Source of the DNA: Aurantiochytrium sp. KH105
Taxonomy: Eukaryota; Sar; Bigyra; Thraustochytrida; Thraustochytriidae
Direction: 5' to 3'
DNA: 64,000 bases
Assembly (NCBI GenBank): GCA_003116975.1
Contig: BGKB01000202.1
Location: 1-64,000 of the forward strand
Made by a program: the position numbers and the translations under genes. The notes under the pieces were generated by a model, which saw only the letters and a list, made by a program, of their open reading frames with translations, had not been told where the DNA came from and searched no databases. Shown here piece after piece: positions 1 through 64,000 of this stretch. How positions within the stretch are numbered: the stretch's first letter is position 1; each line of letters starts with the position of its first letter.

Positions 1-250
1 TTCAGCATGAAGGGATGCGGGGAAGTTCTTAGTCCGGAACTCGTCAAGGAGATCCTCCGACAGAAATCATTGCGCGAAGCTCTAATAAGAGGAAGTGGGA
101 GGAACGTGGAAGAGAAAGCTCCGGAGAGGGAGGCTTCGACGATCGAAGGAGCAAGGTCCTCAAGCGTGAGCCCCCAAGGCCATTTGGGGCCTTTGATGAC
201 CCAAGGGATTCAACGTTTATCTTCTGGGGCGCGGTCTGGTCGAATCGATC

Positions 251-10900: not shown

Positions 10901-13900
10901 TAATGAGGTTGAAGCGACTCTGCAGACGACCACTGATCACGCTGCGGCCACCGCCCGGGGGACCCATCGCCACCATGAGCTGCATATCGAGAATGTAGCG
11001 CCAGGTCTGCTTGGCGCGCTCGTACCAGCCACCGTAGTCGATCCATTGCCGAATCAGCTCAAGCGGGGGCTGCGAGCCAAAGAGATCCTTGCGCGGCATG
11101 TTAAAGTCATCCACAAAGCAGATCAAGTTCTTGCCGCCCGGCGGGCCAAACTTGTCCTTGGAACGCTTTTCCATGCTGCCCTCGATAATCTCCTGCGTCG
11201 TGAGCGAGGAAGTGGCGCTACTAAAGTTGACAACCAGCTTGGCGAACTTGGAGCCCTCTCCGCTCGTAAACTGCTCCAACAGCTGACTTGCGAGGACGGT
11301 CTTGCCCGTGCCCGTGTCGCCGACAAGCATTGTTGCCTTTTGGCCCATGAGTAACGTCTCGGCCACAAAGGTGTTGCGAACCGTGTCGACAGTGGGAACA
11401 GTGATCTTGGCAAATTCCAGTCCACGCTGAGGCCGCCAGCCGTTTGGCACCTTTTCGTCCCACAACTTCCACTCCTTGGCGCCGACGTCGACATAGTAGT
11501 CATAGACGAGCTCTGCAGGCGGAAAGGTTGAGTCCAAATCGCGCAGGCAGCCGTCAAAAGACTTGCGCCCAGCAGCATCGGCGGACCCACCGAGCGACCA
11601 AATCGCACAAAACACGAACCACTTCTCGGACAACATCAAATAGTCGTCCGGTCGCGTGAACGGGCACACACCGTTCTCGGGCGTGGCCAAACAGTCGTAC
11701 AAGTTGCACAAGGAGATGACTGCGTTGAAATCAGTCACAGGAATCAACTCCGAGACCTTGCGCATCTTGAACTTGAGCAGTGCCGTACAGTACTTTGTGA
11801 AAAGACCTGCAAGGAACTTGTTTCGCGCGGCACGGCCGAGCTTGCCATTCTCGTCGTTATCGCTGCGAGCTGCGGCCGAGCCACCAGCCTCCTCTTCGGC
11901 CGCAAGCCGCCGCTCAACCCAGGAGGTCGTGAATGGACCCCAGCCGAGATCGTCGACGTCAAAGTAAATCATACCAGCGCGAGACACTGTCGCAGGAGAG
12001 GCCACCGAAAGATCGCGGACCTCAAACAGAAGCGACATCGAGCTCGACATACCGATACGATCACCATTGATAAGCGTGAGGGTCTTGTTATCATCCATGA
12101 CAGTGTTCATGGATTCAATCCACAAGGTATCGACAGGGCCATCCAAGATGATCCACTTTTCATCGGGTCTCTCGTCCTGCGCGCAGGCACGGAACACGTT
12201 GGAAAGGATACCGTCGCTCCATTCAAAGGTGGCAAGGTCAAAGGCACCATAGAGCTCGTTCATGGACACAGACTTGGGGTTCAGGACGTACTCGCGCACT
12301 GGCTGGAACTCTTCCGGGGCCCGCGAGGACATTGCAGTAGTTGCGTCCGAAAGACACTTCCAGCCAACGGACTTGCCACTGAGGGTCTTACCCACAACCA
12401 TGTTGCAATGACGCGTGAGCTTGGACTCATACAGCTGGACAGACTTGGCCACAATACCTTCGTGAACCTGGAGGCCGCGGTTTGCCAAACTCTCGCGCAT
12501 CATGACGATAAGGTCACCCTGTTCACTCGGAGGTGTCTCCATGCCTGGGAAGAGATCGTTGATAAGCAGCAAGAAGAGCTCCATATCCTCGCGAATAAAC
12601 TTGGGCACGTTCATGTCTCGCAACGCACGCAAAAGAATGAGCTCCTCGGACACCGAGGCATCCGCGCGTTTCAGACCACCTGCACACATGAGCACACCAC
12701 GCAGCGAACGCAGACCAAAATCGTAGTGATCCTGCTTGGACAGCTGCTGAATCATGAGCGCGTAGAGTGTCGTCGTCTTCTTCGCAAGCGGTTTTGCATC
12801 GCGGAAGCCTTCGGCAGCCAACATAACCTCGGCAATGAGCGCTAAATCGGGCACCATCATCGAAACGGGACGAAAGAGTGCTGCCAAGTTATCAGGAAGC
12901 TCCGTACGACCGGCATAACCAGGGTTCATCGTGATAAAGATACCACAGCTCCAGCGGCAACGCACCTCGATGCCCATAAAGTTGAAGCGGCGTTTGCGCG
13001 CTGCAATGGCATTCATGATCGACATCACCTGCTGCGCAATCACGGAAAGCACCTCGATCTGGATACGGTTGAACTCATCGAAGCAACCCCAGCCACCCGT
13101 TTGCACGAGACCAGAAAACATGCGGCCCACACTCTTGTAATCCATCGAATCGGAGCAGTTAAAGACAACCACGTACTTTGCCAAGTTCTTGCCCAAATCC
13201 TTGACCGTCTCTGTTTTACCTGTTCCGGCGGGACCAGCGGGCGCGCCTCCGCGATTCAGGGCAAGGGCAGTCACAAGGGTCAGCACGCAACGATCGGTGA
13301 GGGGCGTCACGACCAGACGACCGTTGTTGCCCTGGTACTCGTAGCCAAATTCCATGCTCTGGTTCGTCTGGCGCACGAGGAGACCTCCAAACTCGCCTTC
13401 GTCCTTGTTCCAGTAAAATCGCAGCTGCGAAAGCCAGTCAAAGTCGTGAATCGACTGACAGTTCGCCTTGATCATGCGATCTTGCACATCACGGTTGTGG
13501 ATTTCCATGGTGATGAGCGCCACCAGCTTGCTTCGCTCAATCTTGGTCAGCTGACCACGCACCATATCTGCAAGGCGGTTCAAGTAGCTAACTTGCTTCT
13601 TCTTGGCCTGTTTAAGCGCCGATTTGTTGTTGCCCTTCATCATGTTCTCCAGAGCGCGCGTGCATTCGGCCGTCCACGCAATGGCGCCCACAGTAATGAG
13701 AAGCTGACCAGGCCACTCCTTGATCCACTTTTCCTTCTTTCCGCGATGCGCTTGCAGAGTGAGGCCACACTGTTTCGCCACGGTATCAAACATACGCGCT
13801 TCGACGTCATTCAGCCACATTTCCACAGGTCCATCGACCACCACAGGACGGGCCAAAGGCACCTTTTCACCATCATTGGAAATCATGGCGTGAGCCTCGT

Positions 13901-16900
13901 ACGTTTTGTTGCCCTGTTTGCCGGGAGCCACAAGTGTGAGGACTTTGATGCCCACAAAACACTTTTTGATGTGCTTTTGCACCTGTGTTGGATCCTTTTG
14001 CTGACCGAGAATCTCCAGCAAGTCATCGTTCGACAAAAAGTAAAAGCGGGGAAAGCTTTGTCTCTTCGTCTCCAAGTACTGGTCAAGACTCTTCTGGATC
14101 TTCTCCAACTTGGCGTCCATTCCCGTGAGCATGTCGAGGATGCCCTCGCGCGTACAAGCCTGCACGGCATTCGGGCGATCCACAATTTCCTGCGTCACCG
14201 TACGGTAGTCCTCGTTCACCTGAGCAAAAAGTTTCGACTCCGTCGGGAGCTGGCGCTGAATGTCCTCCGAGGCCATGAAAATGGACTCCAAGTACATCCA
14301 TTGACGCTGCACCTGCAGCAAGAGGTCGACGACCTCGGAAACAGAAGAAAGGTTGTGCTCCCAGCGCTCGATCTTGTCCTTGAAAGACACAAAGAACTTG
14401 CTCGCTTTCATTGTCGAAAGGGCGACCTGGTTGTCTTCGAGCTGTGTGAACATTTCTTCCGTGGACTTTACCTTCCAGTACACCTCCTTGTAATCGCCCA
14501 TTTCGATATCAATCGTACTCCACGTCTCCTCAATGTCCTTGAGCGACTGCTCGATGGCCAGCTCCTTGTTTGCATTGGCGCTCATCTCCGAGATGAACTC
14601 GCCATGCATGTGCAGACCAAGGGAAAACACTGCCGAGAGGGTGAAAGTGTCGGCAAAGGGGTCGAATTCCTTTTGAATTTCAACCTTGAGCTGGTTCCAA
14701 TGCCGTACACGAATGGCCGGGTTCTTGAGATCCTGGATAAGAGGAAGAGTCTGTCGAAATTGATCAATGAGCTCCTTGAGCGCTTGGTAAGATCCAAACT
14801 TTTTCGCGCCTCCAGCAGAACCCTGGAAACCCTTCTCGCGAGCGAGCTTGCCGATCGACTTGGTGTACTGCGCGGCAGACATCTCCATATCGCCGAGAAC
14901 AAGATTGTCGAACTTGTTGTCCTTCCACTCCTTCCACTGTTCCGTCCAGTCGTGCTTGAGCTTCCAGATCTGATCCAAGACAGAGAGCTCCGTCTCGGTC
15001 CATCCAAGCTCCTGCGACTCGGGCAAGTCAATCTGAAAAATGCCGAGACCCGGTTTGAGACGCTCCTCGTTATCGCGAACAGCCAGGCACTTGTTTCGGC
15101 ACTCTTCGAGAAGGGCAAACGCGCTCTCCGTGTCGTAGTCGCTGCCATAGGGCAATCGCGACGTTGCTTCTTCGCGGAAAGCCTCGACACGTGCGGTAAA
15201 GCTTGTAAGAGCAGACTCGAGGTCTTTCTTCATGTTCTGCTTTTCGCGCTGGAGCGTGTGCTCCGACTGTTCGAGCACAGACGTAAAGCTTGACCAGACC
15301 TCGGGCAAGGATGAAAGCTTGTGCGTCTCCGTGTCCGATACTTGAACGTCAAACTTGGCGAGCGTCTGGTACTTGGCTTCGAGGGGCTCGAACCGAGCTT
15401 CGATGGCGGCGCGCTCCTCCATGAGATCATCCTTGAGGTGAATCTTATCACTGAGCTCATCGAGATTGAGCGGTTTGGCGAGCAGCGTTGCAGAGTGTTT
15501 GGCAAACATGGCGTGAAGCTCCTCGAGCTCTGCGCGCGCGTTCTGATTCAGCAGACCCGTCAACTTGTTCTGCCATTGCATGCAATGGTCTACCAAGGAG
15601 GACTTGAGCAGATTGCAGTCAATCTTGACAAAATTGATCGCACTCGTCATATCCTCAGCTTGAATGTCACTCTGTTGCTCGCGGTAACGAGTAATGTCAA
15701 TGTCATACTGAGAGAGAGGACGGTTGGCTTTGGCATAGCGCCGGATAAAGGCATCCTTGTCAAGATCCCAGAGTGGCCTGTACTTATCCCAGTAGGTGAG
15801 GTACTTTTGAAGCTCTGTAGCGCATGAGCTCATGCCATTCATAACTTGCACCATGATCTTTAGAATATCCTCATCGTTGGATATGCTGTCATAGTACCTG
15901 CGACGTTGCTTTGCGCGCTCAGCTTCGAGGTCCGACTGCTTTTCAGGGTCGATGGAGACGTCTTTGAGTCGAGGAACGACCTTGACCGCACTGATGAGAT
16001 CCTTGCAGACAATGTTGATCTTTTGCGTCAGCTCCATCATGGTTGGGAAGAACCCAACATTGTTGCTGTCGAGCACCACGTTCACCTTGAAGAGTTGTTG
16101 CGGCTCAGTCTTGTTGTCACCATTAATGGCTCGAGCAAGATCTTGCAGAGAGCGCTTAACGGCCTGGCGCAGAGCATCGCCCAGCATCTTGTCTGTCTTC
16201 GACACAAAGCGCTGCCACTCACGCTGGACCTCTGCGGGATGGCCCTCAAAATTCCGTCGCAACTCCTCGAGGGTTGCCATAATGGATGCGTGCGCCGCCT
16301 CGAATCGCCGGCACACCTTGTCGCGATGATCATTTTGGCGCGCAGCAAAGGTGGCGCCCTCGTACACGGTATTTCGCTGGATGTCAATGAGCAGGCTCGT
16401 CCCAACAGCTTTGCATTGACGAATGAGCGCAGCCTTTCGTGTCTTAAAATCACGCACGATCTTATGTGTCTCGGCGCATGTCTTGCACGAATCGCGGACA
16501 TACCATTCAATGGTACCCTTTGACGCCCAGGTGAGTTTGGTGAGACCCGGTGCAATGCGACGATCAAGTCGACGAATGTGTTCCTGGAAAAGACGTCTTT
16601 CTTCCGAGTTCAAGTCGCCAATCACCGCATTGTAGTCGCGCACCACAAGCATGACATACTCTCGCGAAACGCGGAGATCATCCTTGCGATTGGAAATGTC
16701 GTGCGCAACGTAGGGAATCTGCACGGTTCCATTGAACTTTTCCCAGTATCGTACCTCCTCAAAGAGACGCAGGAGGAACTTGTCAAAATTACTCACGAGA
16801 AGGCCTGCGCCGTCTTTGCCATGGCTGCCATGGCCACCTGTGGCGTGACTGCCAGCACCAGCGTCCTCGCCGCTTGCTGCTCCAGGGCGCGTGCTTTCGC

Positions 16901-30915: not shown

Positions 30916-32250
30916 TTACCTTTCAAACCACTCGAAAAATTCACAGGTCTGCGTGCTGTTGGGATTGCACTTGAAGAAATAACGTGAAGCTTTGACGGAG
31001 TACTTTAACGCGGCGGAACGGCCGCACGTGCACTTGGGTGCCTGTGAGGCAATCATGGGTCTTCGCATGCGAAACGTAAGACTGATTCGGGCAAGTTGAG
31101 TGAGCGGATGCGCCCCAATCGACTCGTGACTCTGCGTTGGAACACCATGCTTCCACGACTCCTGCGCGCCAGGCCACATGATGATGGCGTGGTTGTGCGG
31201 GACCCTAGCCGTGTAGACCTCTGATATCTGCTTTGTATCGCTTTCGATCTTGTGCCACCGAAAGTAGCGCGTACTTCCGAGCGAAAGTGCCGCAACGATG
31301 GCACGGGGTCCTAAGGTTGTTAAATAATCGCTATGAAAGGCAATTCCATCTGTGCCGTCTCGGTAATAGTTACAAAGCGCAAATGAAGGTTTCCATGCTG
31401 CTACATAGGCATCATCACCTTTGTGCGAGCGTGCGAGGCCCCTTTCACAGCGAGCCGCAAAGCGTTCCCGCACGAGATTTTGCATAGCCTCGGAGGACTC
31501 CTCAAGGCGCCGAAGCGTTGACTCAGGCGTGACGTGTGTTGGGTCCGCGTCTTTGTTGGCATCTTCATCGACGGCATCGCGACGTTCGCGCTCGCGCGTG
31601 ACTATGCCCTCGTCAAAGCGGTATGTAGCGCTCAGTCGGTTGGTTCCTCCTGTATTGTTAAAGACTGTCCACACGGAGGGTTTCCACGAGGCTTTCGCCT
31701 CGCGCATGAGCATTTTCGCGAGATCGGCTGCGAGGTCTGCTGCAACAGCACCGGGTACAATCTCAAAGGGGCAAGCGAGGCGCTCAAGGTCCTGATTGGT
31801 GAGGGCGCGCTCCTCACGAGACCCTTTGGCACGAACAGTGATAAGTTCGGGTCCCCTTGCGCGATGAAATTGACCAAGAAATGCAACTTGGCTTGCGTTT
31901 TCTGCGGCACCACACTTGCTTTGCGAGTCTTGCTCGCTTCGTGCGAGACAGTGGCGAGCGAGGTGTTCGTCTACTTTGAGCAGCGGCATACTCACTCCGC
32001 AAGCTGGACAAGCGACGCGTCTTTGTGCGTGAGAACGCTCGTCATCCACAAATGCATCTGGGGATGGTCGATCCTCGCGTTGGCGTTTTCTCCAAAAGCT
32101 ATGCAAGGACGCCTTGTCTTTGCCGTTTCCTTTGCCTTTGCCTTTCAAGTTATCAGCACTGATGCGTTTGATGGCGGGGGTGGAGGAAGAGGATGACAAC
32201 GATGACGAGGAGGAGGTAGAGGAGGCGAGAGAGCTTTTGTTTAGGTTCAT
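30916..32250 (-). CDS. AlkB-type dioxygenase with UBZ-like and GRF zinc fingers
   Basis: A 444-residue Fe(II)/2-oxoglutarate dioxygenase of the AlkB family, related to ALKBH2/3, which repair alkylated bases in DNA or RNA. The Fe ligands are His306 and Asp308 (AFHSDYL) and His368 (SWKHGVP); Arg388 and Arg394 in RISLTFR are the 2-oxoglutarate-binding type. NYYRDG at 295-300 is the usual lead-in. Before the catalytic domain lies a finger, C81-x2-C84...H96-x3-H100-C101, resembling the UBZ4 ubiquitin-binding finger of RAD18, with one residue more before the last Cys than in RAD18. After it, at 407-441, is a GRF-type finger (CTCG...FFKC...TCEFFEW) as in NEIL3, APE2 and TOP3A, where it binds single-stranded nucleic acid. 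The N-terminus is Ser-rich and then basic. It is divergent from the gene at 32850. Confidence 0.88.
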   Translation of the reverse strand: MNLNKSSLASSTSSSSSLSSSSSTPAIKRISADNLKGKGKGNGKDKASLHSFWRKRQREDRPSPDAFVDDERSHAQRRVACPACGVSMPLLKVDEHLARHCLARSEQDSQSKCGAAENASQVAFLGQFHRARGPELITVRAKGSREERALTNQDLERLACPFEIVPGAVAADLAADLAKMLMREAKASWKPSVWTVFNNTGGTNRLSATYRFDEGIVTRERERRDAVDEDANKDADPTHVTPESTLRRLEESSEAMQNLVRERFAARCERGLARSHKGDDAYVAAWKPSFALCNYYRDGTDGIAFHSDYLTTLGPRAIVAALSLGSTRYFRWHKIESDTKQISEVYTARVPHNHAIIMWPGAQESWKHGVPTQSHESIGAHPLTQLARISLTFRMRRPMIASQAPKCTCGRSAALKYSVKASRYFFKCNPNSTQTCEFFEWFER

Positions 32251-40515: not shown

Positions 40516-40822
40516 GGTCGCGAGCGGTCGCGAGCGTCAAAGTCGTGAGTTCTTTGGCTCTGCCTCTCGCCCACTGCTCACAGACTCGTCACCTCTCAGC
40601 AAGGTGTATGTATAGACTATTTTTGGGCGTCACTGTCAGTCATCTGGCAGCGTGCATGTGAAAGAACGTGTTGCGGCACGCACGCATGGCATAGGCTTAC
40701 GCACGCAAGCAGACAGACGCATGGTTCGAGAGGTCGGCCTAAGCCCTAGTTCTTGTCTCCAAAAGAAGAGGGAAAATCGTTATGGTGTGTGGAAAGTGAA
40801 GAAAAAGAGAGTCGCAGGCTGG
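40516..40822. promoter_or_regulatory. TSR2 promoter / 3' flank of the LOV-cyclohydrolase gene
   Basis: 307 bases between two minus-strand genes. It holds the TSR2 5' flank and the cyclohydrolase 3' UTR. No ORF or repeat of note. Confidence 0.45.
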
Positions 40823-42364
40823 TCATCGCTGCTGCTTGGAAAAGTTGCTCGAAAGCGAGTTGATGTCTACAAAATGGCCCATGCGACGCGCCTTCGCCTG
40901 CACGTAGTTCATGGAATAGTCCGAGTTCGGAACGACGATGCACTCGAGGCGCTCCGTAATGGTAATGCCAAGCGCCTCCAGGCACTCAATCTTGCGTGGG
41001 TTGTTGGTGAGAAGGCGAACGCTGTCAATTTTCAAGTCACGAAGAATGTCACGGACCGAGTCGTACTCGCGAGCATCGTCGGGCAAGCCAAGATGGCGGT
41101 TGGCGTCCACAGTATCAAGCCCCGTTTCCTGCATGGCGTAAGCGGCAATCTTGTTGGCCAAACCGATGCCACGGCCCTCTTGCGGAAGGTAGAGGACGAT
41201 TCCCCCGGCCGGTGCAGGCGTGGCCTTGTTCACATCCTCCGGGTGCGGTTCTTGCTTGAGCCCATGATCAGGGACGGCGGACTCGCCCTTGATAAAGTTG
41301 AGCGCAAAGTCGAGCTGCTGTTTGCAGTCACACTTGAGGCTGCCAAAGATTTCGCTCGTCAGACACTGATCGTGAACACGCACAACGACATTACTCTGAC
41401 CCTCGACATTGCCATGAATGATGGCAAGAGGCTCGGCGCCCGTCTCCGGGTTGCGGTATGCGCGCACGCGGTAGCGACCATTGTGCGTGGGCAGAGTTGT
41501 CTCGGCGACAAATTGATACCGGGTCTCCTCCGCGGGCTTTTCAGCTGCATCCGAATCAAGAAACCGCGTGGCGTAGTTCTGGTGTCGATAGAGAGACTTG
41601 CCATCGGTCTGCTCGCTGTCTCCGCCGCGCTGGGTGGGCTCGCCTTCGATGTCCGCCTCGCCTTCGTTGGCGTCATTCGGGGCCTTGTCTTTGAGGGCGT
41701 CAACCGTGACCAGACCCTTGGCACTGCCGTATCCAATATACACGTTGTCCAGAAGCGCAGGTCCGCGTGGGATGGACGAGTACACGGAAATGAGCGCCAA
41801 GGCATCGTCCAGGCACAACCGCGGGTAGCTCTGCATGTGCGGCGGGATGGGGATGCCGATGACCTCACCGTGGTACACGGAGAGCGCCTTTTTGTTGTTG
41901 TCGAACTCCGGTTTGATCGTGAGAATGTTCCAGAACGGCTGGCCGTCTTTTCTGTAGTTGAGGATGACCACGCTCGTCTGACTCGTGTCCTTCATGGCGG
42001 ACCGAAGCTCCTCGACGTCGTTCGGGTCGGTCTGTTCTCCCTGCAGAAAGTTGCACTTGCGCCCGACCATCTCCTTCTCCTCGTACCCCGTGAACGTGAG
42101 GAAGGCGGGCGTCACGCTGAGCACAATTCCGCTCTCGTCCGTGAGAATCTCGTTCGACGGCAGCGAGGCGAAGTTGCTCGCGCTGCGCGCGCGTCTGCGG
42201 ATGCTGCCCTTGATCACCGTTGTACTTCTAAAGTCCATCGGCATGTTCTCAGGCGGCTGCCCGCTCTCCGCGGCAGATTCCGACGCTGCGGCGGCCCTCG
42301 TCGCCGCCATCTCCCCGGGTACCCCCAAGCCAGGCGTCGTCTCTGGGTCCACGCTCTCGCCCAT
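40823..42364 (-). CDS. LOV photoreceptor domain fused to GTP cyclohydrolase II
   Basis: From the ATG at 42364 (context aatATGG) the protein has 513 residues. Residues about 69-172 are a PAS/LOV domain. The photoactive-cysteine motif is GRKCNFLQG (Cys104; plant phototropins have GRNCRFLQG). The flavin-contacting Asn pair sits in NYRKDGQPFWN (136-146). Residues about 281-502 are GTP cyclohydrolase II, which opens GTP in the committed step of riboflavin synthesis. The three zinc-ligand cysteines are Cys334, Cys345 and Cys347 (GSLKCDC); the GTP-binding LPQEGRGIGL and DTVDANRHLG stretches and LLTNNPRKIE are intact. A linker of about 110 residues, partly acidic, joins the two. An in-frame GTG-started extension to 42622 is Gly/Ala-rich and unlikely. 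The blue-light control of riboflavin synthesis is inference. No bacterial-type RibB domain is present. Confidence 0.9.
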   Translation of the reverse strand: MGESVDPETTPGLGVPGEMAATRAAAASESAAESGQPPENMPMDFRSTTVIKGSIRRRARSASNFASLPSNEILTDESGIVLSVTPAFLTFTGYEEKEMVGRKCNFLQGEQTDPNDVEELRSAMKDTSQTSVVILNYRKDGQPFWNILTIKPEFDNNKKALSVYHGEVIGIPIPPHMQSYPRLCLDDALALISVYSSIPRGPALLDNVYIGYGSAKGLVTVDALKDKAPNDANEGEADIEGEPTQRGGDSEQTDGKSLYRHQNYATRFLDSDAAEKPAEETRYQFVAETTLPTHNGRYRVRAYRNPETGAEPLAIIHGNVEGQSNVVVRVHDQCLTSEIFGSLKCDCKQQLDFALNFIKGESAVPDHGLKQEPHPEDVNKATPAPAGGIVLYLPQEGRGIGLANKIAAYAMQETGLDTVDANRHLGLPDDAREYDSVRDILRDLKIDSVRLLTNNPRKIECLEALGITITERLECIVVPNSDYSMNYVQAKARRMGHFVDINSLSSNFSKQQR

Positions 42365-43048
42365 ATTCCCCTTCGCGTTCTCGATCCCGCAAGCCCGCAC
42401 GCTACGCGCGCCCGGCCTTCCCGCCACGCCCGAACGCACGCACGCGCGCACGACCGCCCGCACGTCCGGCCCGTCAGCCCCGATGGCCCCTGCGCCGCCC
42501 TCGCCCTGCTCCGCGCGCGCGACGCCGCCCTCGATGCCGCTCTGCTCGCCCTCGGCCTCGGCGTCGCCAATGCCGACCTCCCGCACCGCCGGGTTTGACT
42601 GCACGCTTTCCGCGGCGCACACCCTGGGACGCGCACGCTCTGTCCCCGTGCGCGGAATGCCGCTTTTCCCGCGCCGGGGACCCCCCCTTTCTGAAGCCCG
42701 TCGTCCGTCTGGTGACCTTGGCTTGGCCTGGCCTGGCCTGGCTTGGCCTGGCCTGGCCTGGCTTGGCGCCCGTGGCTCACGCCGCCCCTCGCCCGCCGGA
42801 GACGCTCGGGGTCCGCGACGCGAGTCCAGGGGAGGACTGGGTCCAGTTCGCGCAGCCGCACGATACTGACGCGTGCAAAAGTGTAATAGTGACTGAAGTG
42901 AAAGATGTGACGGAAAGGGAGGAGGAGACGAAGCTGGAGCTGGGGCTGAGCATTACCGCCGCGGACTGCGCAGAGCAAAAGTGAACGAACCGCGGCGACG
43001 TCACGGGCCCGGCGGCGAGGCGGCGACGGGGAGGAGGGACGCGGGGAG
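42365..43048. promoter_or_regulatory. Divergent promoter region, LOV-cyclohydrolase / VKOR
   Basis: 684 bases with CpG-rich sequence and a TGGCCTGGCCTGGCT-type repeat at about 42718-42771. Open frames here are composition artefacts. No light-response element can be recognised by eye. Confidence 0.45.
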
Positions 43049-43579
43049 ATGGCGCGCGTGAGGAGGACGCCGACCTGGCGCGTGCGCGCGGTGCAGGCGG
43101 ACGCGCTCCTCGGCGTCGTCGTGAGCGCGTACGCGCTGTACGTGGAGACGCAGCTGCGCGAGTCGCCGCTGTACGAACCGGCGTGCAACTCGTTCGGAGG
43201 CTCGTGCGCCACGGTGCTTACCTCGTCGCACGCCCATATTCTGTCGCATTGGGGCATCGTGCCGCGCGGCCACGTGCTCGACCTCAGTCTCGCAACGGCG
43301 GGCATTTTGCTCTATTCGACATACCTGCTGGCGATCTCCATCCCCTTTAGCTTTCCGCTCCGCGAGCATCTCTTTCTCGCCGCAGCCGTCTCAGGCGCCT
43401 GCTTCTCCGTGTACCTTTTGTACGTCATCAAGTACATTTTGCACGACTTTTGCATTGTCTGCACGAGCTTTCACGTTTGTAACTTTTTCATGTTGGTCTT
43501 GGCGATCTTGGAGTTTCGCCAACCCAGCGTCCCGTGGCCCAGGAAGGCACCGGTGGGCTCCGTCAAGAAGCAAGACTGA
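43049..43579 (+). CDS. VKOR: Vitamin K epoxide reductase-like protein (VKOR)
   Basis: A 176-residue membrane protein of the VKORC1 type, an ER quinone reductase that transfers electrons from thiols in the lumen. The redox centre CIVC is at residues 135-138 at the edge of a transmembrane helix (YDFCIVC in human, HDFCIVC here). The loop cysteines Cys46 and Cys53 (ACNSFGGSC) match the partner pair of VKORC1. Four hydrophobic segments are visible, at about 17-33, 78-100, 107-131 and 139-156. There is no fused thioredoxin domain, unlike bacterial and plant VKORs. The C-terminus is basic (VKKQD), as in the human protein. The gene has no intron and is divergent from the LOV-cyclohydrolase. Confidence 0.9.
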   Translation: MARVRRTPTWRVRAVQADALLGVVVSAYALYVETQLRESPLYEPACNSFGGSCATVLTSSHAHILSHWGIVPRGHVLDLSLATAGILLYSTYLLAISIPFSFPLREHLFLAAAVSGACFSVYLLYVIKYILHDFCIVCTSFHVCNFFMLVLAILEFRQPSVPWPRKAPVGSVKKQD

Positions 43580-43920: not shown

Positions 43921-44922
43921 TCACTCCTTCTTAGGCATCTCCGAAAAGACGGCGTCCTGAAAAACGCGCTTGAGACGAGGAATGTCCGCGCTCATGACCA
44001 CATCTACATTTGCAGCACCTTGAGGGAGATCCGGAGGGTCCACGAACTGACGCAGGTCAACGACCGTCATTCCGCGCGTGTGTTGCCCTGTGAGCTCCAC
44101 GCGCACATTATGAGCCTTGGTTATAAAAGCGTCCGGGTCGATCACGCCGGCCACCGTGCCCGCGTCGCCCAGCACAGCCGTATCTTTCTCCCATTGTCGC
44201 ATCTCCCGAAACATGAGACGCGCAGCAACTTCAGGGCCAGAATGCTTGCACTCATTCGCGCTGGCAGGATTTACAATGCCCAGCGCAGCGAGCTCGCTTG
44301 CAGAAAACTCGACATTCATGAAAAGATCCCAGGGATACATGGTGATGGGAATGCCGCTACCGAGCACGATCGAAGCTGCCTCCGGATCGTATGCAGCATT
44401 GGCCTCAGACCACGCCATGTAGTTACCACCGCTGCTCACGGCCCCACCCATCCAAAAAATTCGTTTGATGCCCTTTTTGCAGGCTTCCTCATCGATGCGA
44501 AGTGCCATGGCAATATTCGTGAGCGGGGCCAAAGCGATGAGTGTCACTGGGTCTTCTGCACGAGCCCGCTCGCGGAAGATATCAACGAGCATGGGCACGG
44601 CGTGTTTCTCGTGCAGGGCGCGGTCTGTGGTTCGAGGCACGGGAGGATCAAGATCACCAAGGCAATCGACACCGTGGATGAAGGGCGCGGCGTGCAAATC
44701 TTCAATAAGCGGCCTTGCGCAACCTTTGGCGACAGGCAAATCTTCCGGTGCGCCTGCAGCGTCCAAGACACGCAGGGTAGCGTCGGTGACGGTGTCGACA
44801 TCCCCGTTTCCCGCGACGCAGCTCACCGCAATGACATTGAGCGCTGGAGATCTCACGGCAAGAATCAATGCCAGTGCGTCATCAACGCCAGTGTCCACGT
44901 CCATGACCACATCTTGCGGCAT
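43921..44922 (-). CDS. Inosine-uridine nucleoside hydrolase-like protein
   Basis: A 333-residue member of the nucleoside N-ribohydrolase family, which splits nucleosides into base and ribose. The Ca-binding N-terminal motif DVDTGVDDA is at residues 8-16. LIALAPLTNIA and FWMGGAVSSGGN are conserved, and the ribose-contacting Glu173 and Asn175 (SEANAAYDPEAA) are present. The C-terminal block HTRGMTVVD also matches. The usual His-Asp motif before it (HDP in trypanosomatid enzymes) reads GDA at 252-254: the Asp ligand remains but the proton-donating His is replaced by Gly. Activity or substrate may therefore differ. I start at the ATG at 44922, which gives the normal family length; the upstream in-frame stretch translates a tandem DNA repeat (44957-45035). 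Confidence 0.85.
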   Translation of the reverse strand: MPQDVVMDVDTGVDDALALILAVRSPALNVIAVSCVAGNGDVDTVTDATLRVLDAAGAPEDLPVAKGCARPLIEDLHAAPFIHGVDCLGDLDPPVPRTTDRALHEKHAVPMLVDIFRERARAEDPVTLIALAPLTNIAMALRIDEEACKKGIKRIFWMGGAVSSGGNYMAWSEANAAYDPEAASIVLGSGIPITMYPWDLFMNVEFSASELAALGIVNPASANECKHSGPEVAARLMFREMRQWEKDTAVLGDAGTVAGVIDPDAFITKAHNVRVELTGQHTRGMTVVDLRQFVDPPDLPQGAANVDVVMSADIPRLKRVFQDAVFSEMPKKE

Positions 44923-45336
44923 CTTGTGCTTGCTGCTGTGCAAGCCCGCTCCCAAGCTCACGTGTGCAAGTGGTTCACCTAAGCCTACGCGTGCAAGTGG
45001 TCCTCTCAAGCTCACGCGTGTAAGTGGTCCACCCGTCGGGCGACGGCAGTGCCACCTAATTGCGTGTTGCCTCAACACGAGTCGTTGCCAGCCGCTTCTC
45101 AAGCCAACGTGCATGCATGCAGACAAGCAGACAGGCAGGCAGACAAAAAAGCAGGCGTTGTTTCCCGTGCGCTATGCTTCGATGCACGCGCGCTGCAGCC
45201 CTTTGCTCCACTGCCGTTCGAGCTTTCCACCCCAAAGTCTAGCGGCTAAACAATCAACGCAAACCCCGACAAACCCTTTTTATTCTTCTGGATAAGACAG
45301 GCAGAAGCAGACGCGGCGCCACCTCAGCTCGCCACC
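44923..45336. promoter_or_regulatory. Divergent promoter region, nucleoside hydrolase / EMC3
   Basis: 414 bases containing three imperfect copies of a unit of about 30 bases built around CACGCGTGCAAGTGGT (about 44957-45035) and a CAGACAGGCAGG run near 45120-45145. The tandem unit lies just upstream of the hydrolase start and could hold transcription-factor sites. No gene is present. Confidence 0.5.
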
Positions 45337-46755
45337 ATGGACGCGGACCTTATGCTCGACCCGAAGATCAGGAACTGGGTGCTGATCCCGATCCTCATCA
45401 TCATGCTCCTCGTGCAGATGTCGAGGTCTTGGGTACGTTTCTCACGCGCGCGCTCACGCAAGCCACCTGGACGGGAAAGATGGTCGCAGCGCTCGCTCGC
45501 TGCCAGCACGGCAGCACAGGCTTCTTTCTTGCTCCGCGGGCGTGTCTGCCACGCTGTCCCGTTCGCGGTTCTGCGCGCGCTCTTCCTCGCCCTCGCGTCT
45601 TCATACCCGCCCGCCTGCCCCGCCCGCCCGCCCGCCCGCCCGGCCGCGCCACTTGCGAACACGCGCGCGCCGCGTGCATACAAGCACGCACAAAATGAAC
45701 AAGCAGAGCAGGATAGATCAAAAGGTGCAGAAAGGAGAGCAAAGGCGACCACGACAAGAAAGACGGCGACGATGACGATGGCGATGGCAAGAAGAGCTTG
45801 CGTTGCGCTGCGTTGGGCGGATGAGAAAAGCAAGATGCTGGGATATTGATGATGACAGATTGACTGACTGACTGATTGACTGACTGACATGATGACATTG
45901 CGATGCGCAGGCCCAGGTCCTGCTCAAGGGGTCGACGCCGCCTGAGCCAGGACAGTTCAAACAGATGCAGCTGCTTCAGCGCGCGACACGTCTGAGAGCC
46001 AACAACCGCCTTTTGAGCAGCCGCGGCTTTCACATGCGCCGTCACTTTCTCGTGGAACTCAAAGGTATTGGGCTCCGGCAAAAGTTCGAGGGCAGCGCCC
46101 CGAACCCAATGCAGAATCCGGACGGCATGATGAACATGATGAAGGGAAATATGACCATGATGGTCCCTAACATTGTAAGTTATTACGAGAGGGAAGGGGA
46201 GGGGAGAGGAGAGCAATGGGGGGCGCGGCCAGACTTGGTGACGGCTCAGGGCTAACCTTTCTTTATCTGCCGTAATCGTGTCCATGTCAACTTTGCCGGT
46301 TTCGTCATCGTCATGGACAATTGCTTTACATTGTGCACGCTACCTTGCTTTGAATTTTGCAGGCCATGATGACTTTCATTTCGTTCTTTTTCCAAGGCTT
46401 TGTCATGGTCAAGGTGCCCTTTATGCTCACAGAGGGTTTCAAGCAAATGCTCCAGCGTGACATTTCTCTGCAGACGCTGGACACGAGCTACGTGAGCTCG
46501 CTCTCATGGTACTTTCTCGCGCTCTTTGGTCTGCGCGGCTTCTTTTCGCTCGTCCTTGGCGACCAGGCGGTGACCGACGATGCCAAAATTATGCAGCAGC
46601 AGATGGGAATGGGCGGCGGCAATCCGATGCAGTTCGACGCCAACAAGAGCTACAAGCAAATGCGCGAGGGCGTCAAGCACATTCAACACCAATTCTTTCT
46701 CGGCGAGCTCGAGGAAGAGTTCATGATGCTTCCCGCCAAAAAGAAGACCGCATAG
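45337..46755 (+). CDS. EMC3: ER membrane protein complex subunit 3
   Basis: Three exons: 45337-45432, 45911-46174 and 46363-46755, with GTACGT and GTAAGT donors and CAG acceptors, all phase 0, giving 250 residues. EMC3 is the YidC/Oxa1/Get1-related core of the ER membrane complex, which inserts tail-anchored and multipass membrane proteins. The N-terminal DPKIRNWVLIPILIIMLLVQM is the first transmembrane helix with the family's basic cytosolic tail. MMKGNMTMMVPNI, FFFQGFVMVKVPF and the block LDTSYVSSLSWYFLALFGLRG match human EMC3. The start codon sits in a perfect gccaccATGG context. Intron 1 (45433-45910) contains long repeats, including a (GACT)n run close to its acceptor. An alternative acceptor at 45916 would remove two residues. 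Confidence 0.92.
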
Positions 46756-57214: not shown

Positions 57215-60200
57215 TCAATGCGAAGAGCGTTTGCCGGCTGGCGGAGACAATGATGCAATCTCGGCCATGTGTGCGCGCGTGCAGATCCGCACCTCTGGTG
57301 AACGTGCTGCACACTCGAGCAAAAGTTTGCTTCCGTGAAACACCACTAGCTCCCAGCGCACGAGCTGCTTGGTCTGGGCCGTAACCAGCTGCTGTACAAG
57401 CTTCTCGACCACGTACGAGGCACGAATGCGCATTGCAAACGGTCTCCATTCCGCACATGGAAGTAAAAGCTGCTTGAGAAGGCGAAAGAGAACCAATACC
57501 TGCGGATGCACCGTCAGGGTGGGTCCTCGTTGAAGAATGGATGTCACCAAAAATGAAGCGAGACCCATCGCCATTCGTTCTGATGACCGACTCAGGTCCT
57601 CCATCATTTGCACGGCGCAGGCCTCATCGAGCAAAATCAGACGTCGCCACAAACCTGCGTTCACGGCGAGGTTCACAAGGCCGTCCTTGTCGTCAGAGAG
57701 AGCTTCGTCCTTATCGCCCAGAGCGCCGTTACCAGCACCAGCACTGGCAACGCCAGTACTTGCGCCACCAGTTTCATCAGGACTAGCGCCAGCACTAACG
57801 CCGGCGTCGTTGCCCTCTAAGCCCCCATCCGCGGTACTTTCACCGTCTTGTTGCACTGTTACATCGCCGTTCACGTGCGATGGTATCGTTGAAACGCTAG
57901 AGACATTGGCGCTGGCAGGGGTGACCGCTGTCTCGACAGGATCAGTAGCACCATCATAAGCAACCTTGACGCCAGCATCTTGAGCACCTTGAAGCTTTTG
58001 CTCGGTGTTGATACTCACGTCAACATTGTCATCGACGACTTTCTCAACTACCTCCTCTTCCTCGTCCTCCTCTTCATCGTCCGTGGTATCGTGGTGCGAA
58101 TCGTCGACGACAATCAGGTCGTCCAGAATGCTATAGTGCCGCCGCGAGCGCTTGCGTTGTAAACGACGCTGGGCCGCACTTGCGACGAGAACACGCAAAA
58201 GACTCGCCGCCGCCTTTGTTCCCGGTGTCGGGACTGAACCTTCGTACGATGTATAAGCTTTTGTAACGGGCCGTAGCAAACCAAAGTCAAGCAGCATGCC
58301 ACTCTCCACAGCCCCAAGAGACGCAAAAGCCTCCATAATTACAAAGTACTGCACACACGCGTCCGGAGTGGTCATTTGCTTGGAGAGCCAAAAGTGAAAT
58401 GCGCGGACAAATCGCGAAACTGCCTCTGCATTCGCAAGCGCCTGGCCCTCCATCGAGGCAACCACCAGGCGCGCCACGGTCTGCCGAACTGTTGGTTTTG
58501 GGCACAATAGAAATACTTGTTCCACGCGGTCCTTGTCTTCCAGGTACGAGAGGAGCCACCGCTGCGCGCTGTCGCTCCTGCTGATAAGTTCCACCAAGCG
58601 CACCTCCCATTCCGGGAAAAGGCCTTCCACCAACGTTCCCCAGCCATGTGCGGGAACATCGAGAAGGAACTGGATGCTCAGCCGGGCAATCGCCGCTCGG
58701 GATTCTTCCGTGCCAGCGTCGAGCCCAATGCGCATTAAATTCCAGGCGAACTTGTACGTGCTCGCATCAAAGACATAGTTGTGACGAATAAACGTAAGGT
58801 TGTCCTTGAGCAAGGCGTCCACCACGTGCGATGGCAACTTGAGCATGGACACACGCTGACTTCCGTCTCTTGGCTGGCGCAAGTCGCGCGCTCGACTTGC
58901 ATAGGCGAGGACTCTTGTATCCAAACGAGCCGAACTGCGTCGCCTTCGTCTGTGCATAAAGTGCTGCAGCATCTCGATACCGCGCTCGTCTACACCTCGG
59001 TCCTGCGCGACTTGCTCCCAGGACCGTCCATGCCGCTGCGTACGCATACCTTCGCGTCGACTCGACCGCGCCAACGGCGATAGAGAAAGTCGGAACGCAC
59101 TTGAATCCGCAGCGCCGTACGCGGGGTCAAACTTGTTTTCCAAGTCGCCACTCCCGTGACGGTTTTTGCTTCCCCGCGCACTACCCGCTCCGCACTCGCT
59201 CCCACTGTCCGAGCCGGCCGCTGCGTCAAGCACAGCAAGAATATCCTGAGGACTTGAGATATTGAAGCGTCCCAGAAGCCCTGCTTGCTCCATCGTGATC
59301 AACGGAGGTGCTGGCAGGTCCTCATCATCGTCCTCCTCTTCCTCCTCCTCTTCGTCATCCTCCTCGGCTGTTTCGGCACCTTCTTCGTCAACCTCAAGAC
59401 CAGCTGTCTCTGCTTTCATTGCCTCGGTCTGTTCATCAGCTGAGACATGATTCTCGGAGACAGATGGCGCGTCCTCCTGCTCCTCCTCATCGTTTGCATC
59501 ATCACTTTCGACAAGGAGTGCCGCGTGTTCACCAGATTCGTCGACCGAAGCAAGACCTGCAAGGTGATCCAAATTTGTGTCAAAGCCCCGTCCCGAATCA
59601 AGACCTAGCGAATCGTCAGTGTTTTCAACGCTACTCTTGCCATCGTCGCTGACGTCGCGGACGTCGTTGACGTCGTTGGCGGCGTTATCATCCACTTCAA
59701 CACCTGGGGCATACTCCTCGACCACGTCGCTATTTTCGCTGTCGCCCTCGTCATCATCGTCGTCGTCGTCTTCGTCGCTCGATATGGCCGAATCTTGCTT
59801 GGTATCCTCGAGATCCTCGAGATCGCTCCACAGCCCCGGCGAGTTGCCGAGCTTTGTCTCTGGGGAAGCGTCGCTCGCCCAGTTCCCTTGCGATTGCTGG
59901 GTCATCTTGCGGTCATAGACTAGCATGTAAGCACTGCGTGACTTGATCACCTCTGCAACTGATCTATCACTACGCATGATACGCTCCTTGCCGCCAAAGC
60001 AGTCGCCTGGAATGCAGTCAATTGGGTATGGCCACACAAACTTATCATTGAACTCGATCCATTGACCTCCAACCTTGGGAAATCGAGGTCGGCGTTCGCG
60101 AACAAACGAATAGTAGTGTCCCGAATCCATCGTGCCGGTATGCGCAATGACGCCGACCAGCTCATATTGATAAAACCCTGAGCCCATACGATCTTGAGAA

Positions 60201-63200
60201 TCCTCTGCACCGGCGTTGAGTCTTGAAGACGAGCCTGCCTCTTCTGGCCCACCTTCGAGAGATTCTGTGCTTGAGACAGGTACAGACCCGCCCGAGATGG
60301 ACTCCCGCGATACCGAGTCCTCATCATGGATATCGTCCTTGCTCCCACCCGGCGTACGCACGCTGCTGTTCTGTGAAATGTAGTCGTACGTAAAGGGTTC
60401 AAGGTCGAGCGAGAGTGGAAACTCAAAGCGGTCATTCAGCTTGCGCCGCGTAAGTGTCTGCAAGTCGAATTCAAAGCGCTTCAAGTTGATAATGAGATGG
60501 TCCGGAAGCTCCTTGATACACGTTCGCTTGATGGCGTCGACGCGTTCGCCAGATTCAAGCTTGTACTGGTTGTCGCCAGTCAAAAGCTCGCTTTGCACCA
60601 TGGCTTCGAGCGCTTCAGACAATGTCGAACAACCCTTGATGTCGAGCGGCAACGAGTGGAACGGGTCCGGTCGCTCCGAGACATATGGGTTGTTTGGATC
60701 CTTGCTGATGATTTGGTTCACAAGCAAACCTCGAAAGTGAGACTGGACGATTTCACGTGCGTGCTCTGACTCGGACTCGACATGATCGAAAAGCTCCGCG
60801 GCGAATTCATTCACGTCACGCTGCTCGGAGAGGTCGATTGACGCCCCATTTGCCTCAGCAAGAGCTTTGCAAAACGGAAAAGGATCATAGTAGTGCTTTG
60901 TGCTCACACGCAAAGATCCAAAGGTAACCTGCAATTGGTGCAAGAATGTCCCACTGCGCACAGATCGGATCGACAAAATTGCCTCGCTAAAACTCGGAAT
61001 ATGAAAGAGCTGCTGGATGAATGAGTTCATGTAGCACGTGGCGCCAAGATTCTGAAGTCCAGTAAATTGCTGCGGATGCTTGACGAGCGCCAAGGGGTTA
61101 TAGTGCCACTCCTTGGCGAAGCGTGCGCGAAATCCAACCTTGGCGGAACCACCAATGCCATCCTCCTCGAGGAGCTCGCACAGAAGCGCCAGATTAGCCG
61201 GACAGTCTTCAAGAAGCTCGACGAGCAACGCAAAAGCTGCATCGCGGCTCGCTTCGCTCTTGCACAGCGCACTGCGGTCATGAAGGATGAGCGACTGACC
61301 ACTGAATGATCGACGTAGCATACCGCGCGCGCGGCGACCGTGCGAGTAGGATCCGCCACTGTATCGGCGGTCGCTCGACGTCGGTGTCGGCACGGAGCCG
61401 TGCGGGGTCCCAGGAGACTGTTGTTGAGCGCTTTGCTTCTGTCGCGCTTCTGAGCGAATCATCTCCAAGCGTGCGCGATCTCCCTCAAAAGTGTAGCTAT
61501 TTGCAAAGAGCAGGTCGTGATACAAGTACTTGAGCAGATTGTGTTCTGCTGCGAGTGTCTTTAGCGACGGATCTTTGGCCACCACCGTTCGCAAGAGACG
61601 AAGTAGGCCGATCATGAGCTGATCTTCTCGATCTGTATGGAAGCTCTCAAGGCTTTCGTGCATGAGAAGTGCGTCCAAGCTGCGCAGAAAGATTTCGCGC
61701 GTCAACGAGGATACTGCCTCAGCTTGGTGGTCATGCCATAAAATCTCTTCGTCGGGCTTGCCCGATGCTACACTTGCCTTTGGCGTGAAATTCGGTGCAT
61801 TGATCAGATTCTCATCGACCATGTCAATCAGACCAAGCATGAGCATGTGAAACTCGCGACACGAAGACGAAAGATTCCGGTGGGCGCGGCGCACAAGCAT
61901 GCCGTCACGTTGCTCGGATCGCAGAGGCGCATGCATTGCCTTGTCGATGGGCAAAAGGAGGATAAGGTAGTCGCGCGAAAAAGCTTTGCGCTCAACAAAG
62001 AGAGAGTCGTCATGCACGCCCTCGCACGAATTTACCAGCGAGCATAGCGTCAGGAGTGCGCCGCACGCACGTGCGCGGGTGACCTGGTCTTCGCAGTAAA
62101 TGACGAGCTGCTCTGTCAGCTCGCGAATGTGCTCGAATCGAATGAAAGACCGCATGGTCTCCACGTCACCGACGGTGATGCAACTCATCACAAGATACAT
62201 GGCCCTGTCGACGACTTCGCGCATCATATCCACAGAAATAAAGGCATCGGCAGTACACAAGAGCATTGCTTCCAGCGAGGACTCAACGATGCGCGGGAAA
62301 TCCTCCGGGCGGCACGCGTGGACATCTGCCAGCGGGGGTGGCGCAAAAAGTGATCCTTTGGAGACAGGGGGGCGCAGTGTCTTGGTCGGCACCGCGTGCT
62401 TTGCCTGTACTGCCTCGTTGTTTTGGTCATGTTCATCAGCGCGAATCTCGTCGGCTTTGGAACTCTGCTTATTCTGGTGGTCCTCTGCGGGCGTCAGAGC
62501 ATCTGTGCCAGTGATTTTAGAGTTGCTGTTGCTGCTGCTGCTGCTACTGCTGCTGCTGCTGGCTTTGCTGCTGATGATGATGCTGTTTGCCGCGTGCTGC
62601 TCGCTCGCTTCCAGCGGCGGCACATCTTCTATTGGCAAATCGATCGAATCTGCAGGGACAGAGCGGTTTGGCGCGGGGGTCGCTGTGTTGCGTCTTGCTC
62701 GACGCACGGCTCTTCGACTCTTAATGTTGATCATTGTCGCAAGACGCCAAAAGGCATTCTCATCACCTGGCGCCGGACTACTGGACCCCGCAACATCTTG
62801 CGACGGCGAAGGGTGCGGCAGCAGATCCTGCTGTCCGCCAATCGCAGATTGGATCGCGCCGTCTTCCCCTTGAAGAGGGCTGTTCACGGGCGAGCTCGGT
62901 CGCAAGGGCGAGCCCAAGCCCTGCTGAGAGCCGGAAAGTGGAGACATCGCAGTGTATGGCGATGCTGGCGAGTTCAGAGACGACGCGAAACTTGATCGAG
63001 ATCCCGAAACTTGGAGGAAAAAAGCGAGGCGCCGTCGAAATCCTTTATCCGCGTAGAGAAGTGCGGCAATGATTTGGACAAGCACAGAAATGCACTCGAT
63101 GCGCCGAGGTCCAGAGAGCGAGCGATGATTGAGCAAAATTCGCAAGAGATGCTCTGTTCCTGCGCCTGACACAAAGCGCTTGAGCCAGGCGGACTGCTCC

Positions 63201-64000
63201 CCCAACGGTTGAAGGGTGCGAGAATCGACGCGCAGGTCAAACTTGGGCATGTCAAATGCACGTTCGGCTTCCATCTTGCGTCTTACGATCCGAAGTGCAT
63301 ACAAGAGTCGATGTGTGGAGTGAAGAGGCAAAAGACGGTTCCAGTCCTGGTCGAGAGACTCGATCGCCTTGACCATGGCTTCATCCTTTTGAAGAAGCAG
63401 CAGACAATCCCAGACGTTCTGCATAGCGCCTGGATCTGATGATACAACGGACTCCTCGCTCTCTCGAGCTGGATCCAATACCTGGAACATGTCTCCGCAG
63501 ATGGAGTTGATGAAATCTCCTGAAAAAGCGAGCGACGACACTCGAGCGTCGGGATCGGAAACACCATCTGTGCCAGCAGACGATGCAGCTGACATTGTCT
63601 TTGCGTCTGTACCCTCTGCGACAAGACCTGCAAGCGGAGACGCATATCCAGTCTCAAGTGCCTTTTGAACGAGAGGTGTTGCAAGTGCCACGAGTTGGTC
63701 CTGGCGTCGCTCGTCTCCGCCAACGGGCTGAAGGCGTTCCTTTTTGGCTCCATTTGGTCCAACAGCTCCGGGCACCGTTGCGCGCTCAAGTTTGACGTCC
63801 AAGACTTTGACGGAGTCCCAGTCACGAATGCCGAGATCTTTGAGGGTACGTTGGAGATCTGAATCTGCAAAAGGCTTGGGCGGCCCTTGCAGCTCGAGCT
63901 TTTCCGCCTGTAGCGAGTTTCCTCCCGCGGCGCGATAACCGTGAGACGAGCCAGGTCCCGGAGGGTGATGATTTGCAAGGCCGCCCTTGCCGCTCTCTTC
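57215..64000 (-). CDS. Giant ubiquitin-specific protease (USP9X/USP34-like), 5' partial
   Basis: The frame stays open to the right edge of the window, so the start is outside; at least 2260 residues are present. It belongs to peptidase family C19 and should remove ubiquitin from protein substrates. The catalytic core begins near 61070 with FTGLQNLGATCYMNSF (nucleophilic Cys). It includes QRDVNEFAAELFDH and LPDHLIINLKRFEFD, and ends with GTMDSGHYYSFVRER (catalytic His, near 60110) and WIEFNDKFV (Asn-Asp). Large alpha-helical repeats on both sides of the core are typical of USP9X, USP24 and USP34. Low-complexity insertions include a poly-Ser run (about 62520-62570) and long Asp/Glu tracts (about 59310-59780). 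It ends 221 bases from cytochrome b5. Confidence 0.9.
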   Translation of the reverse strand, partial: EESGKGGLANHHPPGPGSSHGYRAAGGNSLQAEKLELQGPPKPFADSDLQRTLKDLGIRDWDSVKVLDVKLERATVPGAVGPNGAKKERLQPVGGDERRQDQLVALATPLVQKALETGYASPLAGLVAEGTDAKTMSAASSAGTDGVSDPDARVSSLAFSGDFINSICGDMFQVLDPARESEESVVSSDPGAMQNVWDCLLLLQKDEAMVKAIESLDQDWNRLLPLHSTHRLLYALRIVRRKMEAERAFDMPKFDLRVDSRTLQPLGEQSAWLKRFVSGAGTEHLLRILLNHRSLSGPRRIECISVLVQIIAALLYADKGFRRRLAFFLQVSGSRSSFASSLNSPASPYTAMSPLSGSQQGLGSPLRPSSPVNSPLQGEDGAIQSAIGGQQDLLPHPSPSQDVAGSSSPAPGDENAFWRLATMINIKSRRAVRRARRNTATPAPNRSVPADSIDLPIEDVPPLEASEQHAANSIIISSKASSSSSSSSSSNSNSKITGTDALTPAEDHQNKQSSKADEIRADEHDQNNEAVQAKHAVPTKTLRPPVSKGSLFAPPPLADVHACRPEDFPRIVESSLEAMLLCTADAFISVDMMREVVDRAMYLVMSCITVGDVETMRSFIRFEHIRELTEQLVIYCEDQVTRARACGALLTLCSLVNSCEGVHDDSLFVERKAFSRDYLILLLPIDKAMHAPLRSEQRDGMLVRRAHRNLSSSCREFHMLMLGLIDMVDENLINAPNFTPKASVASGKPDEEILWHDHQAEAVSSLTREIFLRSLDALLMHESLESFHTDREDQLMIGLLRLLRTVVAKDPSLKTLAAEHNLLKYLYHDLLFANSYTFEGDRARLEMIRSEARQKQSAQQQSPGTPHGSVPTPTSSDRRYSGGSYSHGRRARGMLRRSFSGQSLILHDRSALCKSEASRDAAFALLVELLEDCPANLALLCELLEEDGIGGSAKVGFRARFAKEWHYNPLALVKHPQQFTGLQNLGATCYMNSFIQQLFHIPSFSEAILSIRSVRSGTFLHQLQVTFGSLRVSTKHYYDPFPFCKALAEANGASIDLSEQRDVNEFAAELFDHVESESEHAREIVQSHFRGLLVNQIISKDPNNPYVSERPDPFHSLPLDIKGCSTLSEALEAMVQSELLTGDNQYKLESGERVDAIKRTCIKELPDHLIINLKRFEFDLQTLTRRKLNDRFEFPLSLDLEPFTYDYISQNSSVRTPGGSKDDIHDEDSVSRESISGGSVPVSSTESLEGGPEEAGSSSRLNAGAEDSQDRMGSGFYQYELVGVIAHTGTMDSGHYYSFVRERRPRFPKVGGQWIEFNDKFVWPYPIDCIPGDCFGGKERIMRSDRSVAEVIKSRSAYMLVYDRKMTQQSQGNWASDASPETKLGNSPGLWSDLEDLEDTKQDSAISSDEDDDDDDDEGDSENSDVVEEYAPGVEVDDNAANDVNDVRDVSDDGKSSVENTDDSLGLDSGRGFDTNLDHLAGLASVDESGEHAALLVESDDANDEEEQEDAPSVSENHVSADEQTEAMKAETAGLEVDEEGAETAEEDDEEEEEEEDDDEDLPAPPLITMEQAGLLGRFNISSPQDILAVLDAAAGSDSGSECGAGSARGSKNRHGSGDLENKFDPAYGAADSSAFRLSLSPLARSSRREGMRTQRHGRSWEQVAQDRGVDERGIEMLQHFMHRRRRRSSARLDTRVLAYASRARDLRQPRDGSQRVSMLKLPSHVVDALLKDNLTFIRHNYVFDASTYKFAWNLMRIGLDAGTEESRAAIARLSIQFLLDVPAHGWGTLVEGLFPEWEVRLVELISRSDSAQRWLLSYLEDKDRVEQVFLLCPKPTVRQTVARLVVASMEGQALANAEAVSRFVRAFHFWLSKQMTTPDACVQYFVIMEAFASLGAVESGMLLDFGLLRPVTKAYTSYEGSVPTPGTKAAASLLRVLVASAAQRRLQRKRSRRHYSILDDLIVVDDSHHDTTDDEEEDEEEEVVEKVVDDNVDVSINTEQKLQGAQDAGVKVAYDGATDPVETAVTPASANVSSVSTIPSHVNGDVTVQQDGESTADGGLEGNDAGVSAGASPDETGGASTGVASAGAGNGALGDKDEALSDDKDGLVNLAVNAGLWRRLILLDEACAVQMMEDLSRSSERMAMGLASFLVTSILQRGPTLTVHPQVLVLFRLLKQLLLPCAEWRPFAMRIRASYVVEKLVQQLVTAQTKQLVRWELVVFHGSKLLLECAARSPEVRICTRAHMAEIASLSPPAGKRSSH

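Follow-up and report, generated by a model that had tools for sequence, protein, structure and literature searches.

An apparent LOV-GTP cyclohydrolase II fusion in Aurantiochytrium sp. KH105, with a plausible photoreceptor function

Analysis of a 64,000-nucleotide stretch of the Aurantiochytrium sp. KH105 genome (positions 1 to 64,000 of contig BGKB01000202.1; hereafter the window) revealed what appears to be an unusual, real domain fusion, a LOV domain joined by a linker to GTP cyclohydrolase II, for which a photoreceptor function is plausible. GTP cyclohydrolase II, which catalyses the committed first step towards riboflavin, would be a new type of output for LOV domains. We propose that a functional GTP cyclohydrolase II may here carry a flavin-binding N-terminal LOV domain as its light-gated regulatory input, a proposal on which we stand evenly divided. 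If it is true, the enzyme driven by this photoreceptor would supply the precursor of the receptor's own chromophore, and a single protein would place vitamin B2 synthesis under the control of both light and product; it would also be a new class of LOV output and a candidate tool for light-switched flavin production. The fusion is, moreover, a natural test of how much variation in the LOV pocket is tolerated while still signalling, and of whether a LOV pocket can act as a metabolite sensor.

The frame opens with an ATG and encodes 513 amino acids with zero internal stops, in three consecutive segments: the LOV domain (approximately residues 70 to 172), a 111-residue linker, and GTP cyclohydrolase II (residues 284 to 503).

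40823..42364, reverse strand: coding sequence of the LOV-GTP cyclohydrolase II fusion, 513 aa (translated frame, codon score and ATG scan)
41849..42157, reverse strand: LOV core, residues 70-172 (Pfam PAS_9 at 74-162; PDB LOV structures by sequence and fold)
41516..41848, reverse strand: linker, residues 173-283 (helix at about 185-197, then low-confidence 198-273)
40856..41515, reverse strand: GTP cyclohydrolase II domain, residues 284-503 (Pfam; E. coli 2bz0 by sequence and fold)

An earlier note on this DNA had described a single uninterrupted frame running from LOV into GTP cyclohydrolase II; translation, Pfam, and codon score agree with that description, and all the motifs it quoted were found in the translation. 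With a codon model trained on the window's 4805-codon dynein frame and scored in bits per codon, the fusion frame was the best of six over the LOV segment (0.42, the top coding score among the segments tested), the linker (0.30), and the enzyme (0.38); five other genes of the window scored -0.02 to 0.25. Because LOV, linker, and enzyme share one frame with a clear coding signal, the fusion appears genuine, to the extent that DNA can tell. A chance open reading frame was ruled out, as base-shuffled versions of the fusion sequence were open in 0 of 2000 cases, and the antisense open reading frame at 40652-42598 was rejected as the real gene, antisense frames scoring lower over the LOV, linker, and enzyme segments, though not over residues 1 to 69. 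It could also be argued that LOV and enzyme are separate proteins from two genes, joined here by an error of assembly or splicing. A short intron seems to interrupt a nearby gene (open reading frames at about 45965-46755, read by eye), and splicing therefore probably occurs in this organism. The single stop-free frame and the coding signal across the linker speak against such a misreading, which we consider highly improbable.

The ATG at 42364, taken as the start in the earlier note, is reasonable, since the coding strand holds only one other ATG within 42362-43060, at 42953, and that one is out of frame; around the ATG at 42364, position -3 is A and position +4 is G. The exact start is uncertain because residues 1 to 69 carry no coding signal under the dynein-trained model, scoring 0.00 against 0.08 for an antisense frame there, and the true start could be more internal, for example at Met41 or Met43.

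The enzyme is apparently intact. Pfam GTP_cyclohydro2 matched residues 286-473 with an E value of 9.6e-54 (score 181.8 against a cut-off of 23.3), NCBIfam NF001591 passed its cut-off of 148 at 205.7, and TIGR00505 reached 200.4, about 5 bits under its cut-off of 205.85. The nearest PDB sequences to this part, among the 60 of 139 matches listed, were the cyclohydrolase II enzymes of E. coli, M. tuberculosis, and H. pylori, and the enzyme fold model superposed on E. coli 2bz0 with a TM score of 0.93 over the target. Three stretches of the domain deserve their own lines.

41324..41365, reverse strand: zinc-site cysteines 334, 345 and 347 (CLTSEIFGSLKCDC), invariant in 6/6 aligned sequences
41069..41140, reverse strand: Tyr409, Asp430 and Arg432, equivalent by alignment to E. 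coli Tyr105, Asp126 and Arg128
41207..41284, reverse strand: 26-residue insert, residues 361-386, lacking in all aligned copies from bacteria, phages and viral contigs

We take the three cysteines to be zinc ligands and Tyr409, Asp430, and Arg432 to be catalytic residues; all six are invariant across the 6 aligned sequences. The cyclohydrolase motifs are complete, in line with the earlier note, which had listed all zinc cysteines and the GTP-binding motifs. The insert lies in frame with a coding score of 0.25, the best of six. Compared with RibA (E. coli 2bz0), with which it shares the zinc cysteines, the active-site Tyr, Asp, and Arg, and the fold, the fusion adds the N-terminal LOV domain and the insert. 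RibBA (DHBP synthase-GTP cyclohydrolase II) likewise has two domains with the cyclohydrolase at the C terminus, but in the fusion LOV stands where DHBP synthase would be, and Pfam found no match to a DHBP synthase domain in the 513-aa protein up to an E value of 1.

The N-terminal domain is recognized as LOV by several routes. Pfam PAS_9 matched residues 74-162 (E 6.4e-14), and two NCBIfam LOV-protein models, for blue-light histidine kinases and for the YtvA family, matched at E 5.9e-25 and 4.6e-24, respectively; that both score far under cut-offs set for full-length proteins is normal for a single domain. The match to the generic PAS box was far weaker (E 5.6e-9), and a generic PAS domain was rejected on this ground. 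Among the 60 of 139 PDB sequence matches listed, those closest to this part were LOV domains of phototropins and aureochromes as well as bacterial ones, and a Foldseek search with the isolated domain, which has a PAS-type fold, returned only LOV, LOV-derived, or LOV-containing entries among the 50 of 1072 matches listed.

To compare individual residues, we used 91 LOV loci, made up of 80 prokaryotic loci (the best 80 of 585 relatives from a LOV-led genome scan with at least 593 pattern matches) and 11 from viral contigs (the relatives among 50 pattern matches); positions were named with a list of contact residues and a LOV reference sequence that we assume to be correct.

42053..42055, reverse strand: codon of Cys104, the adduct cysteine of GRKCNFLQG, Cys in 91/91 aligned LOV loci

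Several pocket residues besides Cys104 (91/91) are kept, namely, Asn136 (91/91), Asn146 (90/91), Gln108 (90/91), and Leu107 (88/91), and so are Arg121 (80/91) and Val117 (58/91), although counts at motif positions overstate how fixed they are because the 91 loci were found by patterns around the same motifs. Asn136 and Asn146 form the Asn pair that we take to touch the flavin ring. The GxNCRFLQ motif reads GRKCNFLQ, with Cys, Phe, Leu, and Gln retained and Asn and Arg altered: Lys103 stands where 88/91 relatives have Asn, and Asn105, presumably at the site of one of two phosphate-binding arginines, stands where 87/91 have Arg. The active-site glutamine of the last strand, present in 84/91 relatives, is absent, its place being taken by Glu167 in the MAFFT alignment or by Val168 if the strand shifts by one. 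The D[IV]T that usually starts the C-terminal helix of LOV domains is missing, and the loop following the first strand is 3 residues shorter than in 12 of the 13 relatives listed. Cys104 and several other pocket residues bear out the LOV core of the earlier note, and Lys103, Asn105, and the lost glutamine make that core atypical. With known LOV photoreceptors (phototropin LOV1/LOV2, aureochrome, and YtvA) the fusion has in common the fold, the adduct cysteine, FLQG, the Asn pair, and NYRKDG.PFWN; it differs from them in its cyclohydrolase II output, the Lys and Asn flanking the cysteine, and the lack of the signalling glutamine and of D[IV]T. One of the 91, a bacterial LOV locus from Pseudidiomarina (match at 5001-5237), reads GRSCSFLQG, likewise without the Asn and Arg by the cysteine, and is a possible natural comparison.

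These departures could also mean that the LOV domain is degenerate or structural, its photochemistry lost and its present role being dimerization, localization, or none. The three altered near-invariant positions, the shortened loop, an atypical last strand, and a linker of low model confidence would all fit such a domain; on the other hand, Cys104 and the other listed pocket residues are intact though they would have been free to drift. The coding score of 0.42 favours a gene, but says nothing on pocket function. Overall, we regard this explanation as unlikely.

For the lost glutamine there is precedent in excerpts of a study of Gln-less LOV receptors (PMC9098866), in which such receptors are reported to retain productive, if often weaker, responses, about 350 natural ones are catalogued, and the glutamine is described as generally dispensable for LOV signalling. 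The same excerpts report that blue light represses a natural Gln-less LOV diguanylate cyclase, that the response of YF1 is largely unimpaired with Glu for Gln and abolished by Pro, His, Trp, Tyr, or Arg at that site (they do not mention Val), and that charged residues are largely absent there in natural Gln-less receptors (PMC9098866). Because such receptors still respond by this account, the missing glutamine weakens but does not abolish the case for light sensing (PMC9098866, excerpts). The fusion and these natural receptors (LOV-deltaQ) share a LOV core without the glutamine; the fusion has Glu or Val at the site as well as the Asn and Arg changes, and the output of the LOV-deltaQ receptor tested in the excerpts is a diguanylate cyclase (PMC9098866).

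Structure models bear on how the two domains might communicate. AlphaFold2 modelled the full protein (57 sequences) with a mean pLDDT of 66; block means were 87-96 for residues 71-150, 81 for 151-160, and 62 for 161-170, the region of the last LOV strand. Enzyme blocks ranged from 46 to 95, with low values near the zinc cysteines (62-64) and at the 26-residue insert, and pLDDT fell below 50 at residues 8-68 and 198-273. A model of residues 57-205 (64 sequences) had a mean pLDDT of 82.5, with 59-77 over 157-205. The last LOV strand was of lower confidence in both (block means of 62 in the full model and 73 in the 57-205 model) and was placed at 160-167 and 160-164, respectively, its register being uncertain. 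A helix follows at 185-197 in the full model and 183-196 in the shorter one. As the linker was modelled without homologs, its low confidence may reflect missing data rather than disorder; a PDB sequence search with the linker gave one match, at the chance level (E 3.1).

In the light-gated enzyme that we propose, the LOV domain would take up flavin and serve as a regulatory input to GTP cyclohydrolase II; blue light would form the Cys104-flavin adduct, which would alter LOV folding or LOV-LOV contacts. Given the length and probable flexibility of the linker, the signal would most likely reach the enzyme through dimer assembly or docking of LOV onto it rather than along a rigid signalling helix. 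The retained adduct cysteine and several conserved residues of the pocket favour photosensing; against it stand the three changed near-invariant LOV positions, the absence of D[IV]T, and the pLDDT below 50 of linker residues 198-273. Light gating seems plausible, yet less certain than the earlier note took it to be. The sequence shows the fusion in one frame, the identity of both domains, and the conserved catalytic and adduct residues; flavin binding, a photocycle, and an effect on enzyme activity, in either direction (light-on or light-off), are what we infer from it. Going further, the protein might close the loop on its own chromophore: the pathway product would have to fill the pocket before light could switch it, and flavin level and blue light would jointly set riboflavin synthesis at the enzyme itself, without transcription, although we find this doubtful.

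A serious rival to light gating is flavin-occupancy sensing, in which the apo and flavin-bound states of LOV would set enzyme activity and steady the riboflavin supply as product feedback, light being secondary or irrelevant. The ligand of such a sensor is what the pathway produces. Loss of the arginine may affect how the FMN phosphate is held, and Asn105 in its place could relax the preference for FMN, but the other pocket changes could equally reduce the binding of every flavin. Titles of PDB entries name the LOV-derived miniSOG after reconstitution with riboflavin, and also an Arg variant grown with riboflavin; our literature search found no paper on miniSOG with riboflavin. Measured affinities fall in a useful range: excerpts of a study of the YtvA LOV domain give KD values of 351 nM for riboflavin, 715 nM for FMN, and 224 nM for FAD, the phosphate bringing no energetic gain and riboflavin having roughly double the affinity of FMN (PMC3836802). 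Because YtvA, on these excerpts, binds riboflavin more tightly than FMN, a LOV pocket could in principle report riboflavin itself (PMC3836802). The passages of the literature that we searched contain no mention of feedback by flavin at cyclohydrolase II. The retained adduct cysteine would be superfluous for a pure gauge. We think it rather unlikely that occupancy is mainly what the domain senses.

Our searches of prokaryotic genomes, phages, plasmids, and viral sequence found no fused copy, within the limits given with each result. Scanning viral sequence with the whole protein gave 1 pattern match and 0 relatives, and neither the 430 plasmid records nor the 9 phage records that matched included one covering 80% of the fusion protein. 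The DNA of the 91 LOV loci, 22 of which are shorter than 10 kb, held no cyclohydrolase match at E 1e-3; conversely, an enzyme-led scan of viral contigs gave 31 pattern matches and 15 relatives, and none of these 15 loci had a LOV match near the enzyme, with flanks of up to 2 kb. Among eight prokaryote genomes, five had matches to both LOV and the enzyme, on separate contigs or tens of kilobases apart, and the other three had LOV matches only. In a set of 299 genomes from one phylum, 220 matched at E 1e-20, and none of the matches listed, which are a subset, starts before query residue 259, so that they cover the enzyme only; with at most five candidates scored per genome, the centre genome included, this is a weak test. 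The earlier note knew of no described LOV-cyclohydrolase II enzyme, and we likewise found no description of this fusion in the open-licence papers that we searched; in PMC7017516, PMC11677807, and PMC13028884 the LOV term is confined to the reference lists. The nearest functional parallel is in Pseudomonas mendocina, where, according to excerpts of PMC9758184, light-inducible pterin genes lie beside a short LOV and LOV sensing is tied to a GTP cyclohydrolase gene; there the enzyme is cyclohydrolase I (FolE), encoded by a separate, unfused gene.

The window also carries an axonemal dynein heavy chain gene on the reverse strand at 4995-19412, which runs uninterrupted for 4805 codons over 14.4 kb (Pfam DYH2-5-8 coiled coil), together with genes for Hsp70, a protein kinase, VKOR, and a long ubiquitin hydrolase. 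This gene content marks the host as a flagellated, intron-poor eukaryote. Light-driven proton-pumping rhodopsins are reported in thraustochytrids in a passage of a review (PMC12558739). The fusion shares its upstream region with VKOR, and a TGGCC-type tandem repeat lies inside it at 42719-42767.

42365..43048, no strand assigned: upstream region common to the LOV fusion and the divergent VKOR gene at 43049-43579 (gene positions)

Searches of the window with Rfam and ARAGORN came back empty (0 matches and 0 genes, respectively). An inosine-uridine nucleoside hydrolase (43921-45126, reverse strand) lies near the GTP-using riboflavin enzyme, which may be chance. At one end of the window (200-1510), the frame at 251-928 has no Pfam match and looks transposase-like by eye; after it comes a tandem duplication of 295 bp at 925-1510, which encodes a DCGIHVM motif resembling, by eye, Ulp1-type proteases. 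At the other end, the ubiquitin hydrolase frame (57215-63802, reverse strand) spans 2195 codons, UCH being the only domain recognized. Finally, the reverse-strand gene at 30916-32250 encodes a 2OG-Fe(II) oxygenase, which we take to be AlkB-like, with a C-terminal GRF zinc ribbon that scores under its curated cut-off.
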